From: Luteolibacter pohnpeiensis
GTDB lineage: Bacteria > Verrucomicrobiota > Verrucomicrobiia > Verrucomicrobiales > Akkermansiaceae
Direction of reading: 5' to 3'
Assembly (NCBI RefSeq): GCF_016595435.1
Contig: NZ_JAENIJ010000008.1
Coordinates: forward strand, 62,001 to 126,000
DNA length: 64,000 bases
Shown in pieces: positions 27,480 through 63,586 of this stretch (position 1 is the stretch's first letter; every line of letters begins with the position of its first letter). A program made the position numbers and the translations under genes. A model generated the notes under the pieces. The model saw only the letters and a list, made by a program, of their open reading frames with translations. It did not search any database and had not been told where the DNA came from.

Positions 27480-27848
27480 GCAGAACGGGGAAAGTAATGA
27501 TTGTGATCAGTAACTTTTGAATGATCCAAATAGCTTTCTGATAGATGATTCAAGGTATCAGCTGAACAGGTCAAAAAGGTCAATGAAATAGAGAATAAAT
27601 CAGATTTTCACCTAGCGTTTTTGCTGTGTGAATCTGATATATGAAATGAAGTTTGAGTTAGATAACGAATTGGCAGGTAGATAGTTGAATCTAGGTGTGG
27701 ATGTAGTGGTTAGATGATTTGCTGGAAGGCATTCGCTGTAGGGGTGCTGATGCAGTTCAATGCCTCTGGTAGGTGTGCAATTTAATAACTGTTACTTACT
27801 CTTTTCGATGTCATTTGACTCAAGAATGCAAGAAATTATTATGCTTAT
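27480..27848. other. AT-rich gap upstream of the rimK operon
   Basis: No convincing gene was seen in this 369-base stretch, which is clearly more AT-rich than the flanking genes. It contains one imperfect hairpin at 27599-27638 (ATCAGAT and TCAC pairing with GTGA and ATCTGAT across a two-base bulge). The promoter of the rightward rimK operon should lie here, but no strong -35/-10 pair was identified. Confidence 0.4.
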
Positions 27849-28004
27849 ATGCAATTTGCGGATACGATTCAAATGTTTGTCTATCTGCTGTTTAAGTGGA
27901 TCTATGGCTTGAGATCTCCCTTTGCTTTGACTCTATTAGGCAATGGTCTTATGAAACGGTATCGGGATGAGTCATCACGGAATGACACCGAGTTGTTGTT
28001 ATGA
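27849..28004 (+). CDS. Small ORF (51 codons) coupled to rimK
   Basis: ATG 27849 to TGA 28004. The product has a hydrophobic N-terminal half (IQMFVYLLFKWIYGL) and a charged C-terminal tail (LMKRYRDESSRNDTELLL), like a small membrane-associated peptide. Its last codons overlap the rimK start as ATGA, the typical arrangement for translational coupling. The surrounding DNA is AT-rich and no ribosome-binding site is obvious. It could be a real small protein, a leader ORF or chance. Confidence 0.4.
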   Translation: MQFADTIQMFVYLLFKWIYGLRSPFALTLLGNGLMKRYRDESSRNDTELLL

Positions 28005-29203
28005 AACTTTCCATTTTGTCCTGTTCGCCGAAGTGTTACTCCACCCGCCGACTCGTTGAAGCGGGTCGAAATCGAGGGCATAAAATCGAAGTCCTTAATA
28101 CGCTTCGGCTTACCATCGGGCTCGATCACGGAACGCCGGAGCTTTATTACCACCGCAAGATCCTCAGGACGCCCGATGCGATTCTTCCGCGGATCGGCAC
28201 ATCCATCACACGCTACGGCACTGCCGTAGTTCGACAGTTTGAGCAGATGGATGTCTTCACCCCGAACACGGCGGCTGGGATTGGAAATTCGCGGGACAAA
28301 CTGCGCAGCCTGCAAATTCTCTCCCGGCACGACGTGGGAATCCCCTTGAGTGCCTATGTCGATGACAAGCGCGATGTGGAAGATGCATTGCAGCGGGTGG
28401 GCGGAGCGCCGGTGATCATCAAACTGCTCGAAGGAACCCAAGGCGTCGGAGTGATTTTGGCCGACAAACTGGAAATCGCGAAGGCGATCATCGAGACCCT
28501 GCACAGCACCAAGCAGCAGGTGCTGTTGCAGAAATTCGTAGCCGAAAGCAAAGGCAAGGATGTTCGAGCCTTCGTGATCGGCGATCGGGTCGTGGCTGCG
28601 ATCCGGCGGACTGCTCAGGGACAGGAATTTCGCTCAAATGTTCATCGCGGTGGCAAAGCGGAGATGATCCAGCTGGATTCGGTGTATGAAGAGGCCGCTG
28701 TGCGCGCGGCTCAAATCATGGGATTGCGGATTTGCGGCGTCGACATGCTCGAAGGTGCCTCGGGCCCGCAGGTGATGGAGGTGAACTCTTCCCCCGGCCT
28801 GGAGGGGATCGAAGGGGCGACGGGCTTGGACATTGCCGGGGAAATCATCGATTACATCGCGGATCAGGTGAAATTTCCAGAAATCGATATCCGCCAGCGA
28901 CTTACCGTCAGTCGCGGCTATTCAGTGGCAGACATCAACATTCCGGAAGGAAGCCAGTTCGTCGGCGTGACCATCGATGATACCGGGTTGCGGGAGCTGG
29001 ATGTTGTGGTGCTGACGCTTCGCCGAAAAGGCATGGTCATTTCCAATCCGAAGGGATCCCGTGTTCTGGAAGCAGATGATTCCTTGCTCTGCTACGGCAA
29101 GTCCGAGCACATGAAAGGCCTGATCCCGACGAAACCGAAAAAGCGACGACGGGTCAAAAAGCTGGAGCCGAGCCCAAAATCCACCACTGACCCGAATCCC
29201 TGA
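28001..29203 (+). CDS. rimK: RimK-family ATP-grasp ligase fused to a C-terminal TrkA-C (RCK_C) domain
   Basis: 400 residues. The first 290 or so match RimK, which adds glutamate residues to ribosomal protein S6 or a similar acceptor: MKLSILSCSPKCYSTRRL, RIGTSITRYGTAVVRQFE, the ATP-grasp VIIKLLEGTQGVGV, RAFVIGDRVVAAIRR and the metal-binding EVNSSPGLEGIEGATG. E. coli RimK ends soon after that point. Here a domain of about 65 residues follows (DINIPEGSQFVGVTIDDTG to ADDSLLCYGKSEH) with the TrkA-C pattern known from K+ channel and transporter regulators, then a basic tail. The start is firm. It overlaps the next gene by one base (TGATG). Confidence 0.93.
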   Translation: MKLSILSCSPKCYSTRRLVEAGRNRGHKIEVLNTLRLTIGLDHGTPELYYHRKILRTPDAILPRIGTSITRYGTAVVRQFEQMDVFTPNTAAGIGNSRDKLRSLQILSRHDVGIPLSAYVDDKRDVEDALQRVGGAPVIIKLLEGTQGVGVILADKLEIAKAIIETLHSTKQQVLLQKFVAESKGKDVRAFVIGDRVVAAIRRTAQGQEFRSNVHRGGKAEMIQLDSVYEEAAVRAAQIMGLRICGVDMLEGASGPQVMEVNSSPGLEGIEGATGLDIAGEIIDYIADQVKFPEIDIRQRLTVSRGYSVADINIPEGSQFVGVTIDDTGLRELDVVVLTLRRKGMVISNPKGSRVLEADDSLLCYGKSEHMKGLIPTKPKKRRRVKKLEPSPKSTTDPNP

Positions 29204-30285
29204 TGAGCCGAAAATCGAGCGACATCGGAACATGGGGGGCGAGTGAAATTGCGCCGGGTGAGCGCAAGCGACTCCGATTGGAGATCGGAAAAAACTTCAG
29301 TGGCTCCAGCGTCACGCTGCCGCTCATGGTCTGGCGTGCGCCCGAGGACGGTCCGGTCGTCGGTATCACGGCGGCGGTCCATGGAGATGAAATCAATGGA
29401 ACGGGAGCCATCCGCCGACTGATTCAGGAACCGCCTTTTACCCTGACTCACGGCACGCTCATTTTGGTTCCTGTGGTCAATATCATGGGGTTTGAGCGAC
29501 ATAGCCGCTACATGCCGGATCGACGGGATCTGAACCGATGCTTTCCCGGCAGTTTGCATGGCAGTCTGAGCTCCCGATTGGCCCGGGCGGTATTCGATCA
29601 GGTCGTCGGCCGTTGCGACTATTTGATCGACCTGCACACGGCGGCGGTTCGTAGGACGAATTTTCCCAACGTCCGGACGGATTTTGACGAGCCCGAGTGC
29701 GCTAGGCTCGCACGCGCCTTTGGTTGCGAAGTCATCGTTAACAGCGCCGGGCCGGATGGCTCTCTGCGGAAAGCCGCGGTGAAAAGCGGCTGTCCCACCA
29801 TCGTGCTGGAGGCGGGTGAAGTTTGGAAAGTGGAGCCGAGCGTTCAGGAGCTGACTTTGCGCGGCATTTCCAATGTGCTGGCAGAGTTGCAGATGACCGG
29901 CGGAGTTTGTGAGCCGCCACCGCATCAGGTCATTGTTCGTGAAACACGCTGGATCCGTTCCGAAAGCGGGGGCTTCCTGCACTTTCATGTGGCTCCGGGA
30001 GATGCGGTAGCTGAAGGGCAGGCGGTGGCGAGCAGCACCAACCTCCTCGGTTCAGAAATGGAAATCATCCGCAGCCCGCTCGCGGGAGTCGTGATGGGAA
30101 TGACTACGATGCCCGCCGTAGGACCAGGCGATCCTGTGGTGCATATTGCTTTGCCGTCCGATGCCAAACAACAGCTGAAATTGGAGAAAAGCATTGATAA
30201 TCTGGACTCGGATACGATTGAAATTCAGCTGCGCGAACACCTCGCTACGAATATTGTGGTGAACGTCCTCGAAGAAAATTCCTAA
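29203..30285 (+). CDS. Succinylglutamate desuccinylase/aspartoacylase-family deacylase
   Basis: 360 residues. Zinc carboxypeptidase-like fold with AAVHGDEING (His and Glu ligands), RDLNRCFPG, LIDLHTAA (third ligand) and VLEAGE (catalytic Glu), then a C-terminal barrel (GGFLHFHVAPGDAVAEG). Relatives hydrolyse N-acyl amino acids such as N-succinylglutamate or N-acetylaspartate. Placed directly after rimK with a one-base overlap, it could remove or recycle the amino acid that RimK ligates; the substrate is not established. Confidence 0.92.
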   Translation: MSRKSSDIGTWGASEIAPGERKRLRLEIGKNFSGSSVTLPLMVWRAPEDGPVVGITAAVHGDEINGTGAIRRLIQEPPFTLTHGTLILVPVVNIMGFERHSRYMPDRRDLNRCFPGSLHGSLSSRLARAVFDQVVGRCDYLIDLHTAAVRRTNFPNVRTDFDEPECARLARAFGCEVIVNSAGPDGSLRKAAVKSGCPTIVLEAGEVWKVEPSVQELTLRGISNVLAELQMTGGVCEPPPHQVIVRETRWIRSESGGFLHFHVAPGDAVAEGQAVASSTNLLGSEMEIIRSPLAGVVMGMTTMPAVGPGDPVVHIALPSDAKQQLKLEKSIDNLDSDTIEIQLREHLATNIVVNVLEENS

Positions 30286-30293
30286 CAATTCCC

Positions 30294-30731
30294 ATGATCA
30301 TCGGCTGGAGAGAATGGATCGAGCTTCCGGAATGGTCGCTGCGCATGCGGGCCAAGGCGGATACGGGCGCACGCAGCAGCGCGATCGATTGCGCTGAAAT
30401 CGTCGAACTGCCGAACGATCGGGTGCGATTCACTGTTCGGTTAGATCGGAAACAAAAAAAACTGATCACGCTCGAGGAGCAGATCAAGTTCCGCAAACGC
30501 GTCCGCAGCAGCACGGGCGATGGGAATGACCGGATTTTCGTCGAGACCACGCTGAGGCTTGCCGGTGTCGAAAAGAAAATCGTGATGAGCCTGGTGAGCC
30601 GCAAGACCATGATTCATCGCATTCTGTTAGGGCGCGAGGCACTAGGGGATGATTTTTTAGTCAACAGCGCCGTCGACCATTGGGCTACGCCGCGCAAGCG
30701 CGGCAAATCCGCGCCGCCCGCAGAAAATTGA
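30294..30731 (+). CDS. Retropepsin-like aspartic protease of the RimB/DUF785 type ('ATP-dependent zinc protease')
   Basis: 145 residues. The active-site motif DTGA is at residues 23-26 (KADTGARSSAID) and the family's closing motif is LLGREALGDDFLV. The fold is that of single-domain retropepsin-like proteases, despite the historical name. In Pseudomonas this type of gene is linked with rimK (rimB). It starts 8 bases after the deacylase, making a three-gene operon of ligase, deacylase and protease. It is convergent with the next gene, with two bases between their ends. Confidence 0.88.
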   Translation: MIIGWREWIELPEWSLRMRAKADTGARSSAIDCAEIVELPNDRVRFTVRLDRKQKKLITLEEQIKFRKRVRSSTGDGNDRIFVETTLRLAGVEKKIVMSLVSRKTMIHRILLGREALGDDFLVNSAVDHWATPRKRGKSAPPAEN

Positions 30732-30733
30732 TC

Positions 30734-32062
30734 TCAGTTTTCCGAGCCCTTGAGCTTTGGGTCATCCAGATCGAGTCGATACATGATCTGGTTGTAATCG
30801 TATTTCGCGGTTGGGACCGGGTTTTTCGCAAAGGTTGTGGTGTAGGTTCCTTCGAACAAAATGTAGGGCGCCTTTTCCGGAACCAATTCGGCATGAAGAA
30901 GGGGATTGTAGAAGGTGTAGTTGTCGTGGCTCAGCACCTTCGTCGCTGGGCCCCAGGGGCCGAGAGGTGAAGTGGCTTCCGCATACCAAATTTCGCCGAG
31001 ATAGGACGAGTCGCCACCGTTCTGAGTGTAAATCGTGATCCAACGATCCCGATATGCGTTCCAAGCCACGGATCCACGGTGTGCGGGAACCGGCTTTCCA
31101 TTCTCTGCTGAAACCGGAGCCTTTGGCGGCTCGATTTTTTTCCAGCTGGATGCATCGCTCCAACCCTCGAACGTTGCCGGGCACTGAAATGTGGGAAAGG
31201 GATCGCCTAACAAAAGCATGTCTTTGAATAAAACCGGGTGCCCGCGGGGAATTAAATCCGGCATGGCATCGCCCTCTTTCCAAAGGACCCGGTATGGCTT
31301 GAACTGTTCGGATGGATCATCCCACACGCACAGGCCGACTTCATATTCCGACAGCGAGTTTTTGATTTTTGAATAGGTCGCGACCAAGTGCTCGCGACCC
31401 GATTTATCGGGTAGGCTGACGATTGCACTGAGCCAAGTTGGTCCGTCGCCGGTCATTGGTGCGACTCCGCGTGGCTTCCCATTTTTATCGCGATAGAGGT
31501 CGAATTCCAAGGCAAGGGGAGCCTCGAATTTTTTCAATGGATGGAGCGGTGTGGTCGCGGCCGATGAATCAAAAATGCCAAGCGGGTAACCGGGCATCGA
31601 CGTGTCGCCCCAGAGCCAGAACAGTTTTCCGTGATAGGGTGCCACCAGAACCGAGTCACAACCCATGATGCCGGATTCAGGAATCAGTGGTTTGGGGCTG
31701 TTGGAATAGAGTCCCGCGCCCGTGAGGCGGCCAAGCCGTTTGGCAATGATCTGGCGGTCGATTTCGACCCGGAGATGTTTCCCGGCTTCGGGTGTGCAGC
31801 GAAATCCTTGGTACCCGAGCCCGTCGGGTTTCAGCCCGTAGCCGTGGCTTTTCAGGCTGAGCCAGATTTCATGGTCCTGCAGCTCAGGATCGGAAATCGC
31901 AACCATTCCGAGGTTGTCCGTAACGAATTTTTCTTGGTGGGTGGTTTGCAGCTCGACGAGCGGAACCGGCCAACCGTTTTCACGATCGACGATCTGAATT
32001 CGAAACGGTTCCGCAGCTTGAACACCTACGGCCAACCCCAAAATTACTGCTAAAAAACGCAT
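30734..32062 (-). CDS. Secreted glycosidase-like five-bladed propeller protein
   Basis: 442 residues from ATG 32062, chosen for its signal peptide (MRFLAVILGLAVGVQA). After an N-terminal beta-rich domain come repeated propeller-like motifs: GCDSVLVAPYHGKLFWLWGD, GVAPMTGDGPTWLSAIV, HRGSVAWNAYRDRWITIY, and WYAEATSPLGPWGPA. The last is typical of GH43/GH32-type and DUF4185-type propellers. A role in extracellular polysaccharide breakdown or binding is likely; the catalytic acids could not be assigned. Divergent from the aminotransferase gene at 32139. Confidence 0.78.
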   Translation of the reverse strand: MRFLAVILGLAVGVQAAEPFRIQIVDRENGWPVPLVELQTTHQEKFVTDNLGMVAISDPELQDHEIWLSLKSHGYGLKPDGLGYQGFRCTPEAGKHLRVEIDRQIIAKRLGRLTGAGLYSNSPKPLIPESGIMGCDSVLVAPYHGKLFWLWGDTSMPGYPLGIFDSSAATTPLHPLKKFEAPLALEFDLYRDKNGKPRGVAPMTGDGPTWLSAIVSLPDKSGREHLVATYSKIKNSLSEYEVGLCVWDDPSEQFKPYRVLWKEGDAMPDLIPRGHPVLFKDMLLLGDPFPTFQCPATFEGWSDASSWKKIEPPKAPVSAENGKPVPAHRGSVAWNAYRDRWITIYTQNGGDSSYLGEIWYAEATSPLGPWGPATKVLSHDNYTFYNPLLHAELVPEKAPYILFEGTYTTTFAKNPVPTAKYDYNQIMYRLDLDDPKLKGSEN

Positions 32063-32138
32063 GGCTGGGGCATACGTGACAAATGGAGGCAGATGTTTCA
32101 ATTTTACATCTTTGAGAGATCCGACAACATCGCCAGGA

Positions 32139-32978
32139 ATGGTGACGCTGTGGCAAGATGGGCGATGGATCAAAGAGGGAGAATTCTCGATCAATCCTGG
32201 CGATCGTGGCTTGCTGCACGGTCTAGGGTTGTTCGAGACGATACTCGCGGTTGATGGCAACCCGAAATTTCTCGGAAAGCATCTTCGCCGACTTCGGGAA
32301 TCCTGTCAGCGATTGGGCTGGAAATCCCTCGAGTATTCTTTCGAGTCCATCATTCGCGAGCTTTTGCAGCGGAATCAGCTCGAAATCGGCAGGGCGAAAG
32401 TAAGGCTCGCCCTCACGGCCGGCAGCGGATCAATCCGGGACTTGAACTCGGGAGCCAATCGATCCGTCTGGCTGACGGCAGAGGCTGCTGGAACCGAAAT
32501 GGAATCGATAGCCGTTGATATTTCGCCCTGGGTCCGCAACGAAAGATCACCCCTCAGCGGACTGAAATGCGCGTCCTATGCCGAGAATCTACTGGCACTG
32601 GAACACGCCAGAAATGCCGGTTTTGAGGAAACGCTTTTTTTGAATACCTCTGGTAAAGTCTGTGAGGCAGCGACGGCCAATGTGTTCGCAGTGGTTGCAG
32701 GTAAGCTTTTTACGCCTCAACTCTCATCGGGATGTCTTCCCGGCATCACCCGGGCAGTGGTGCTTGAGCTTGCCAGGCAACTGGGAATCGACGCTCGCGA
32801 GGCTGATATTGATCTCGGAACCTTGGTTTCTGCGACAGAAGTTTTTCTAACTTCTTCAGTGCAAGGCCCGGTCCCGGTATGTCGTATCGGCGAGCGCCGC
32901 CTGGCGATTGGGACCCTATTCCATCGCATTCGTGGGGCATGGACAGGTAGGGTTGAGCCCAATTCTGAATGGAGATGA
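32139..32978 (+). CDS. Aminotransferase class IV (4-amino-4-deoxychorismate lyase or branched-chain type)
   Basis: 279 residues from ATG 32139 (MVTLWQDGRWIKEGEFSIN); the frame is open further upstream but would overlap the divergent gene. Fold-type IV PLP enzyme: GDRGLLHGLGLFETI, the PLP lysine Lys143 in SGLKCASYAENLLAL, and GKVCEAATANVFAVV. The lysine context and overall length favour aminodeoxychorismate lyase (p-aminobenzoate for folate) over branched-chain or D-amino-acid aminotransferase, but the choice is not secure. Confidence 0.85.
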   Translation: MVTLWQDGRWIKEGEFSINPGDRGLLHGLGLFETILAVDGNPKFLGKHLRRLRESCQRLGWKSLEYSFESIIRELLQRNQLEIGRAKVRLALTAGSGSIRDLNSGANRSVWLTAEAAGTEMESIAVDISPWVRNERSPLSGLKCASYAENLLALEHARNAGFEETLFLNTSGKVCEAATANVFAVVAGKLFTPQLSSGCLPGITRAVVLELARQLGIDAREADIDLGTLVSATEVFLTSSVQGPVPVCRIGERRLAIGTLFHRIRGAWTGRVEPNSEWR

Positions 32979-61948: not shown

Positions 61949-63586
61949 TTACTCAGCCTTTTGATAATATGAAGTCACTGTTTCCGCAGCGACATCAGGA
62001 AAGTCGGTCGCAAAGCTAGCCACACCGAGATCTAACAAACGGGTGAATAATTCCGGATCGCGGCTTCCCCATGGGAGTGTTTGGAAGAGAACGTCGTGTT
62101 TGCGTAGTCTGGAGCCGACATTTCGGAGGAAATCAGCAGAGGGGGTGAATCCGTCTGGAGCAGACTGGGACGGTTTTACATGGATTTGAAGTTGATCGAT
62201 TCCAGCGAAGTTTTCCTTCTCCAATGAATGAATACGCTTTTCCAGATCTTGCTCACTGCCACCCATCCAATGCAGGGTCGAGGATTCAGGAGCAAGCTCC
62301 TTCCATTCTCGAATGACCTCAATGTGCGTGCTTGCAAGAATTAATCGATTTGCCAGGCCCTGAAGGTGCGCTTCTTTCGCAAGTTGCTTCAAATCGATAT
62401 TTTTGATATCTACATACACTCGGCGAGTGTCATCTTCTTTTAATTCTTGAAAAATATCTTCCAGAGATGGGATGCGCTGCCCTCGGAAATGATCGCCTTT
62501 CCATGCTCCGATATCGAGTTTGCTCAATTCTTCCCAGGTGAAGTCTTCCACACTGCGTTTCCTTATTTCATCCGATTCGTTGGGTAGAATTCGAGTAAAG
62601 TCGTTGTCATGAAATGCGACGATCACCCCATCTTTGGTTGTCCTCAAATCAGCTTCCGGAATGGTCCCTAATTTCCAGGCGAGGCGAAAGCTCTCTGCAG
62701 AATTTTCAGGCATGAGTTCTCCCGCTCCGCGATGGCTTTGGATGATAAAGTTTTGCCGAGGGATATGCTGACGAACATTCCAGCTGGATTCATTCTGGAA
62801 CAGCTGAGTGCGAAGATCTTTTGGCTGATTGGTGGTGATGAAATCCACTCCCAGATCGATCATTTGCTTGGCGATGATGGGATTATCCACCGTCCATGCG
62901 TCGATTTTATAGCCGGATTGTTTTAGCTGATTAATCCATGATGATGTGACAGGAGCTTCAGAATTGAATTGGAAGCCTTGAGCTCCCAGACTTTTCAATT
63001 CCTCAAAATATCCGTCCGCCATTCCGGGTTGTTTGAAATTTTTCAGTGAAGATAGCCAGTGCGCCTCGAACTGTGGCAGTTGGCGGCGGCATTCCTTGAT
63101 GACTTCTTGGTCGAATGAAATCAGCACAACCTGTTTGGGGTTTGCCTTCTTCGTTTCCAGGATTTTCCGGATTGGAGCTACAATTTCGATCCCATCCTTG
63201 ATTTCCAGGAAAAACATTTTTCCTTCAGGAAGAATGTCTAACACATCACCTAATCTGGGGATGTGTTCATGGTGATATTTTTCACTCTTCCAGGAACCAA
63301 CGTCCAACTTTGCCAATTCCGGCCAGGGGGTATTTTGAACGACGAGATTTTTATTAGCCACACGTTTTGTATCAGCATCATGGATGCAAACCACCTCACC
63401 ATCAGGTGTTAGATAGAAATCTCCCTCAATCCCATCTGCTCCCTCTTCCCAGGCGAGACGAAAGGAAGATAGGGTGTTTTCCGGCGCGGCGTGGGATGCA
63501 CCGCGGTGCGCGATGAGTTTGACCGGACCAGCATTTGCGAAGGCGATCATGACACAACTCATGCCAATAGGTAGAAGGGTTTTCAT
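61949..63586 (-). CDS. Exported double-domain glycerophosphodiester phosphodiesterase
   Basis: 545 residues with a signal peptide (to SCVMIAFANA). Two complete GDPD domains in tandem: the first begins KLIAHRGASHAAPENT with GIEGDFYLTPDG and VVCIHD, the second begins IIQSHRGAGELMPENS with EADLRTTKDGV and FHDND. Both carry the HRG, ExD and HD catalytic motifs, so both are probably active. GDPDs hydrolyse glycerophosphodiesters to glycerol 3-phosphate and an alcohol, usually as a phosphate or carbon source. Confidence 0.94.
   Translation of the reverse strand: MKTLLPIGMSCVMIAFANAGPVKLIAHRGASHAAPENTLSSFRLAWEEGADGIEGDFYLTPDGEVVCIHDADTKRVANKNLVVQNTPWPELAKLDVGSWKSEKYHHEHIPRLGDVLDILPEGKMFFLEIKDGIEIVAPIRKILETKKANPKQVVLISFDQEVIKECRRQLPQFEAHWLSSLKNFKQPGMADGYFEELKSLGAQGFQFNSEAPVTSSWINQLKQSGYKIDAWTVDNPIIAKQMIDLGVDFITTNQPKDLRTQLFQNESSWNVRQHIPRQNFIIQSHRGAGELMPENSAESFRLAWKLGTIPEADLRTTKDGVIVAFHDNDFTRILPNESDEIRKRSVEDFTWEELSKLDIGAWKGDHFRGQRIPSLEDIFQELKEDDTRRVYVDIKNIDLKQLAKEAHLQGLANRLILASTHIEVIREWKELAPESSTLHWMGGSEQDLEKRIHSLEKENFAGIDQLQIHVKPSQSAPDGFTPSADFLRNVGSRLRKHDVLFQTLPWGSRDPELFTRLLDLGVASFATDFPDVAAETVTSYYQKAE

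Follow-up and report, generated by a model that had tools for sequence, protein, structure and literature searches.

The analysed stretch of the Luteolibacter pohnpeiensis genome (hereafter the window; 64,000 nucleotides, positions 62,001 to 126,000 of contig NZ_JAENIJ010000008.1) carries a three-gene operon encoding a RimK-type alpha-L-glutamate ligase with a C-terminal RCK_C domain, an AstE/AspA-like zinc amidohydrolase and a retropepsin-like polyglutamate endopeptidase. All three genes lie on the plus strand: rimK-trkA_C at 28001-29203 (400 amino acids), the AstE-like gene at 29203-30285 (360 amino acids) and rimB at 30294-30731 (145 amino acids). The first two share a single base at 29203, and 8 bases (30286-30293) separate the second from the third. 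An initial annotation had listed overlaps of 4 and 1 bases and a gap of 8; the 1-base overlap and the gap hold, and the 4-base overlap does not.

The ligase is assigned three Pfam domains: a Rimk_N pre-ATP-grasp domain (residues 1-94, 28001-28282; E 6.8e-35), a RimK ATP-grasp domain (residues 98-286, 28292-28858; E 5.3e-57) and TrkA_C/RCK_C (PF02080; residues 310-372, 28928-29116; E 6.4e-9, 36 bits against a gathering cut-off of 27). This significant profile match bears out the extra TrkA-C domain that had been proposed from the sequence, and the same family was matched at E 0.001 or better in 58/58 relatives scanned. The protein passed the model for RimK family alpha-L-glutamate ligases (TIGR00768; 238.1 bits, cut-off 143.4) and did not reach the S6--L-glutamate ligase equivalog (NF007764; 303.4 bits, cut-off 331); the MptN and CofF models also matched, below their cut-offs. 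K100, K141, D248, E260 and N262, which we take to be the ATP-grasp catalytic residues, are invariant in an alignment of 58 RimKs. Of the stretches compared, conservation is highest in the linker that joins the ligase to RCK_C (residues 291-308, 28871-28924), with a mean commonest-residue frequency of 0.877 versus 0.847 for the ATP-grasp region (96-290) and 0.698 for TrkA_C (309-374). The predicted structure is modest overall (mean predicted local distance difference test score, pLDDT, 70.6), with local values of 81-91 in the TrkA_C region, where the strand-helix-strand order fits RCK_C. In a fold search with this model, RimK and ATP-grasp chains took up the whole list of matches, leaving the search uninformative on RCK_C.

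The second gene product matches AstE_AspA_cat (PF24827; E 2.6e-38, 131.9 bits against a gathering cut-off of 25), in line with the deacylase type first assigned to it. HGDE, DLNR, H145 and E203 are invariant among 41 AstE-like sequences, and HGDE, H145 and E203 are presumably the zinc-site motifs. Its model is confident (pLDDT 92), with DoeB as the nearest fold, followed by further AstE-family entries, CphZ, AstE and aspartoacylase; M14 carboxypeptidases rank lower. The protein fell short of the equivalog cut-offs for DoeB (TIGR02994; 67.5 versus 402.7) and aspartoacylase (NF002601; 31.7 versus 180). The third product matches Zn_protease/RimB (PF05618; E 1.8e-19, 70.5 bits against a gathering cut-off of 27), which agrees with its earlier placement in the retropepsin-like RimB/DUF785 group, and scores 76.8 bits against a RimB equivalog cut-off of 200 (NF052261, not reached). 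K21 and the DTGA motif (residues 23-26), presumably catalytic, are invariant in 28 RimBs. No signal peptide is visible in the RimB of the window.

Conservation of the three-gene module

We scanned genome contigs with the fused 400-aa protein as query and retained the best 80 of 501 candidates as relatives, in all of which RimK is 391-424 amino acids long. All three genes occur on the same strand at the same locus in 38/80, in four orders: RimB-RimK-AstE (17), RimK-AstE-RimB (16, the order of the window), RimK-RimB-AstE (4) and RimB-AstE-RimK (1). Partial same-strand sets account for the other loci (RimK-RimB 10, RimK-AstE 9, RimB-RimK 4, RimK alone 19). With both strands counted, 41 of the 80 loci have all three genes, 12 RimB only, 11 AstE only and 16 neither; restricted to the 64 loci that have 3 kb of flank on either side, the figures are 34, 10, 10 and 10. 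Spacing is 60 bases or less in 83 of 99 adjacent same-strand gene pairs. Because the genes stay together in four different orders, a joint function is strongly indicated. Two near-identical Pseudomonadota loci have a conserved protein of about 270 amino acids between rimK and rimB (L078, 7297-8088; L080, from 7304), with relatives in loci L071 and L083.

A single draw of 115 Verrucomicrobiota genomes, searched with RimK, RimB and AstE, gave a similar picture. RimK relatives (E 1e-30 or better) were found in eight, four with the fused form (L. pohnpeiensis included) and four with the plain form only; the draw also contained 14 genomes of the same family, none with a RimK at this threshold. RimB relatives of at least 159.5 bits, a line chosen after the gap in scores had been seen, occurred in exactly those eight genomes, and 11 others had weaker matches (best 91.3 bits). 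AstE relatives (E 1e-30) occurred in 7/8 RimK-bearing genomes versus 1/107 others. Fisher P values, for genomes that are not independent, were 1.7e-12 for RimK with RimB and 1.4e-9 for RimK with AstE. Gene coordinates place RimK next to RimB in 8/8, and the three genes side by side in 7/8. The grouping noted at the outset is thus far beyond chance, and adjacency of the three genes is common among relatives.

In an unrooted tree of the catalytic parts of 76 fused and 12 unfused proteins (8 near-duplicates of the 80 omitted, bootstrap not fully settled), the two forms split with 100/100 support. The unfused rows came from plasmids, three phylum genomes and the L. pohnpeiensis genome itself, and the fused rows from Verrucomicrobiota, Planctomycetota, Thermodesulfobacteriota, Chloroflexota, Acidobacteriota and Pseudomonadota, with Myxococcota as a putative seventh. 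On this tree, the RimK-TrkA_C fusion appears to define one clade over six or seven phyla.

Unfused RimK is adjacent to both AstE and RimB on 5/8 plasmid loci (Acaryochloris, Vibrio nigripulchritudo, Phaeobacter inhibens, Salinivibrio proteolyticus and Vibrio europaeus). The Allocoleopsis plasmid locus has neither partner, the Escherichia coli locus was viewed with 200-base flanks only, and the Persicobacter record is unannotated at the locus. The AstE partner is common to unfused RimK operons, hence not tied to the fusion, and the module is widespread and no local oddity. To call this version unusual, as the initial annotation did, was too strong, given the spread of the fused clade and the AstE genes beside unfused RimK on plasmids and in Verrucomicrobiota. 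No fused form was seen among plasmid and phage records: none of the 102 plasmid and 32 phage records with a match covers 80% of the query. Cyanophages (KX349313 and others) encode RimK relatives that are short and bear the annotation ribosomal protein S6 glutaminyl transferase. We found no description of the fusion, its AstE partner or its CorA neighbours (see below) in the open-access literature, most subscription literature lying outside the search; parts of this neighbourhood may have been described by Iyer and colleagues, who reportedly surveyed ATP-grasp amidoligases in 2009.

Ribosomal protein S6 and the proposed product of the ligase

Ribosomal protein S6 had been put forward, along with total protein, to be checked for added glutamates. 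We read S6 in 31 genomes, all RimK carriers: L. pohnpeiensis and 30 of the 50 carriers handled. The L. pohnpeiensis protein ends in HLQQYQRIA directly after the core. In the 12 Verrucomicrobiota carriers, this one included, S6 never has Glu or Asp as its last residue, and each of the 12 proteins stops within 13 residues after the matched core. We rejected the S6 tail as RimK acceptor in this phylum on these grounds; with no acidic tail in 12/12, the classical RimK target is unlikely in Verrucomicrobiota. In some bacteria S6 is stated not to end in glutamate (PMC11957791). The L. pohnpeiensis genome also encodes a second, unfused RimK (contig C184, locus L120, 6831-7772), 47% identical to that of the window, with no RimB or AstE relative within the surrounding 16 kb, though S6 is tailless.

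We tentatively read the operon as a cytoplasmic module of poly-alpha-glutamate turnover that builds, cuts and trims the polymer, with the ligase coupled to a K+ or osmotic signal, and give this reading a probability of roughly 0.45. The analysis establishes the gene content, the domains, intact catalytic motifs, the conserved co-location, the missing S6 tail and, in relatives, an excess of ion channels near the module; the product, the order of its reactions, the substrate of the hydrolase and the sensing step are inferred. With ATP, RimK-TrkA_C would add glutamates, more likely to free glutamate chains or to some other protein than to S6. RimB would cut polyglutamate stretches and probably stimulate the ligase like its Pseudomonas relative, and the AstE-like zinc enzyme, likely a glutamyl-amide hydrolase, would release free glutamate from short or terminal glutamyl amides. 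Through the almost invariant linker, RCK_C would couple the ligase to the K+ or osmotic signal, such that the glutamate pool and the polyanionic polymer would track ion balance. The outline of a write/erase/cut system with a built-in sensor, as first proposed, is fair in this light; S6 does not look like its target. In Pseudomonas fluorescens, RimB cuts polyglutamate and stimulates the synthesis of free poly-alpha-glutamate by RimK (PMC11957791). RloA, a RimB relative, is needed under hypo-osmotic stress (PMC12239564).

Two other products have to be weighed. RimK-TrkA_C might polyglutamylate the C terminus of one specific protein other than S6, the tail being removed by RimB together with the AstE-like enzyme in the role of a carboxypeptidase. 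Eukaryotic deglutamylases are carboxypeptidases, and M14 carboxypeptidases are among the lower-ranked folds that resemble the AstE-like model. In Pseudomonas, the action of RimK and RimB on S6 is proven (PMC7343187, PMC11957791). We nevertheless regard such a tail as unlikely: S6 is tailless in all 12 Verrucomicrobiota carriers read, the L. pohnpeiensis genome nowhere matches a run of four Glu codons and a stop (though fewer glutamates might suffice in an acceptor), and none of the genes that recur near the module is a candidate target.

Alternatively, the ligase might make a glutamyl amide analogous to beta-citryl-glutamate or N-acetylaspartyl-glutamate, which the aspartoacylase-like enzyme would degrade. 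RimK-family ligases make such amides in other organisms, aspartoacylase and DoeB are N-acyl amino acid hydrolases, and the sub-threshold MptN and CofF matches point the same way. Such a pathway requires no endopeptidase, however, and RimB, a polyglutamate-specific endopeptidase in Pseudomonas (PMC11957791), stands beside RimK in all eight RimK-bearing Verrucomicrobiota genomes of the draw. We hold this to be the least probable product, and an improbable one.

Poly-alpha-glutamate turnover can be set against three known systems. Like the window, the RimABK system of P. fluorescens encodes a RimK ligase and a RimB retropepsin together (PMC7343187, PMC11957791); here, by contrast, no EAL-domain RimA is found among the five flanking proteins scanned, the ligase carries RCK_C, an AstE-like partner is present and S6 is tailless in Verrucomicrobiota. 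RloABC of P. aeruginosa likewise combines a retropepsin with an ATP-grasp protein and is tied to osmotic stress (PMC12239564), but RloA is a secreted protein with RloB as its membrane partner, whereas the RimB of the window lacks both a visible signal peptide and a partner of this kind. A complete rloABC-like operon lies elsewhere in the L. pohnpeiensis genome (contig C77, locus L127, 6914-10220), encoding a secreted-looking Zn_protease/RloA of 242 amino acids, an inactive transglutaminase with 7 transmembrane helices and an ATP-grasp protein; the genome thus holds both RimK/RimB and Rlo systems. The cyanophycin cycle consists of CphA, cyanophycinase and CphZ, the last acting on cyanophycin dipeptides. 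It shares with our proposal a plan of ATP-grasp polymer synthesis, endo-type breakdown and a hydrolase of AstE fold that handles the small products. The two differ in polymer, in protease class and in sensor, and the likeness is one of plan, not of family.

The RCK_C domain and ion-channel neighbours

RCK_C is the sensor of KhtT, KtrA and BusR, and in BusR it sits on a non-transport protein (PMC8517857); here its partner is a glutamate ligase, and c-di-AMP cannot be its ligand in every carrier. Such domains mostly belong to potassium transporters, a hint that the proposed cycle responds to salt or osmotic stress. By sequence, KhtT (E 0.005) and MthK (E 0.011) have the closest RCK_C domains of solved structure, both weak leads. 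A DAC-family gene is present in 38 of the 50 carriers and in L. pohnpeiensis, where c-di-AMP may be the ligand. None was found in the nine Pseudomonadota carriers tested; c-di-AMP therefore cannot serve the whole clade, and we rejected it as a universal ligand. The domain would bind some small molecule if it is a sensor. It might instead be a mere dimerisation clamp for the ligase, as RCK_C is dimeric even without ligand in BusR (PMC8517857) and the best-known RCK_C ligand is not universal. This we consider somewhat unlikely, since four invariant polar or charged residues (D334, N349, R354 and D360, in 58 RimKs) and the near-invariant linker suggest more, and unfused RimK functions without the domain.

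Having seen that an MscS gene follows the operon of V. nigripulchritudo, we clustered the open reading frames of 90 loci. Apart from the module and its shadow frames, CorA (12 loci) and MscS (11) formed the largest clusters, followed by ABC transporters (9) and kinases (8). Profiles built from clusters of these same loci, which include the non-independent near-relatives L023-L025 and L078/L080, detected MscS at 12 of the 80 loci, two with weak matches, and CorA at 10. By gene counts in the 50 carriers, both channels are in excess near the module, with 7 MscS observed versus 0.70 expected (P 9e-6) and 5 CorA versus 0.14 (P 4e-7); with the near-duplicate L080 removed, P is 9e-5 and 1.5e-5, respectively. 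MscS had been suggested beforehand by V. nigripulchritudo, whereas CorA was picked post hoc, with many families seen. Among the 25 commonest Pfam families of each batch, for 195 nearest neighbours at 52 loci, were MscS (7), CorA (5), MgtE_N (4) and Na/H exchangers (2), with MFS (4) and M20 peptidases (4) equalling MgtE_N. Plasmid loci agree with this: on the Salinivibrio plasmid, MscS and a magnesium transporter lie by the operon, and on the V. europaeus plasmid rimK, astE, rimB, MgtE, CorA and MscS follow one another consecutively. MscS and CorA often adjoin away from rimK too (for example, G025 C11, G036 C15, G043 C9, G046 C1 and G047 C2 among the 50 carriers), and possibly form one unit for that reason.

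Free glutamate is the main counter-ion of K+. On a change in K+ or osmolarity, an RCK_C-gated ligase could turn glutamate into a polyanion, and RimB and the hydrolase could return it, in concert with the magnesium channels CorA/MgtE and with MscS; we put this extension forward as speculative and rather doubtful. The identifier K05844 presumably denotes rimK. It is among the glutamate-modification genes that are more common in brackish than in marine genomes (PMC10219603), and when Bacillus subtilis takes up K+ after an osmotic upshift, Mg2+ is lost and reimported (PMC8844918).

Several observations weigh against polyglutamate turnover under ionic control. Among carriers from other phyla, S6 ends in Glu or Asp in 9/19, and S6 could therefore be the target there, which also favours protein modification. 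The hydrolase reaches no equivalog cut-off, so that its substrate is inferred from its operon partners. Neither RimB nor AstE accompanies RimK in 10 of the 64 loci with two 3-kb flanks. The MscS excess weakens to P 8e-4 without the two weak matches and to 6e-3 without the near-duplicate as well, and CorA and MscS are absent from the 18-kb stretch tested at the locus of the window itself. In P. fluorescens, c-di-GMP regulates RimK and stimulates it (PMC7343187). Judged by its length, this RimK presumably lacks the RCK_C domain.

RimK is mostly classed as ribosome-modifying, and this clade combines ligase and protease with a hydrolase and with a sensor domain known from ion transporters. If the speculative extension is true, the module would give bacteria of six or seven phyla a store of glutamate and a buffer of charge that bear comparison with cyanophycin. 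Polyglutamate under ionic control would show the role of RimK where S6 is no target and link the system to osmotic stress. The question is amenable to testing with three small soluble enzymes.

Flanks of the operon

The operon had been taken to start at 27849, which belongs to a 51-codon open reading frame (27849-28004); the true start is 28001. We rejected this frame as a gene: tblastn on the 80 related loci, some of which end short of the region upstream of rimK, gave a best E of 2.1 and no credible relative, and its guanine-cytosine (GC) fraction is 0.41 versus 0.57 for rimK. We treat 27849-28000 as a putative leader. An Rfam scan of the window gave no matches above gathering scores, and the surroundings of the leader gave two weak matches only, far under threshold. 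Further upstream, 27480-27848 is AT-rich and non-coding (GC 0.37 versus 0.53 window-wide) and contains a weakly supported promoter-like site on the plus strand (TTGACT-16-TATTAT, 27815-27842); three sites of this type were found in the region versus 2.4 in shuffles, so the site alone is no evidence. Downstream of rimB, the next long open reading frame (30734-32260) lies on the opposite strand.

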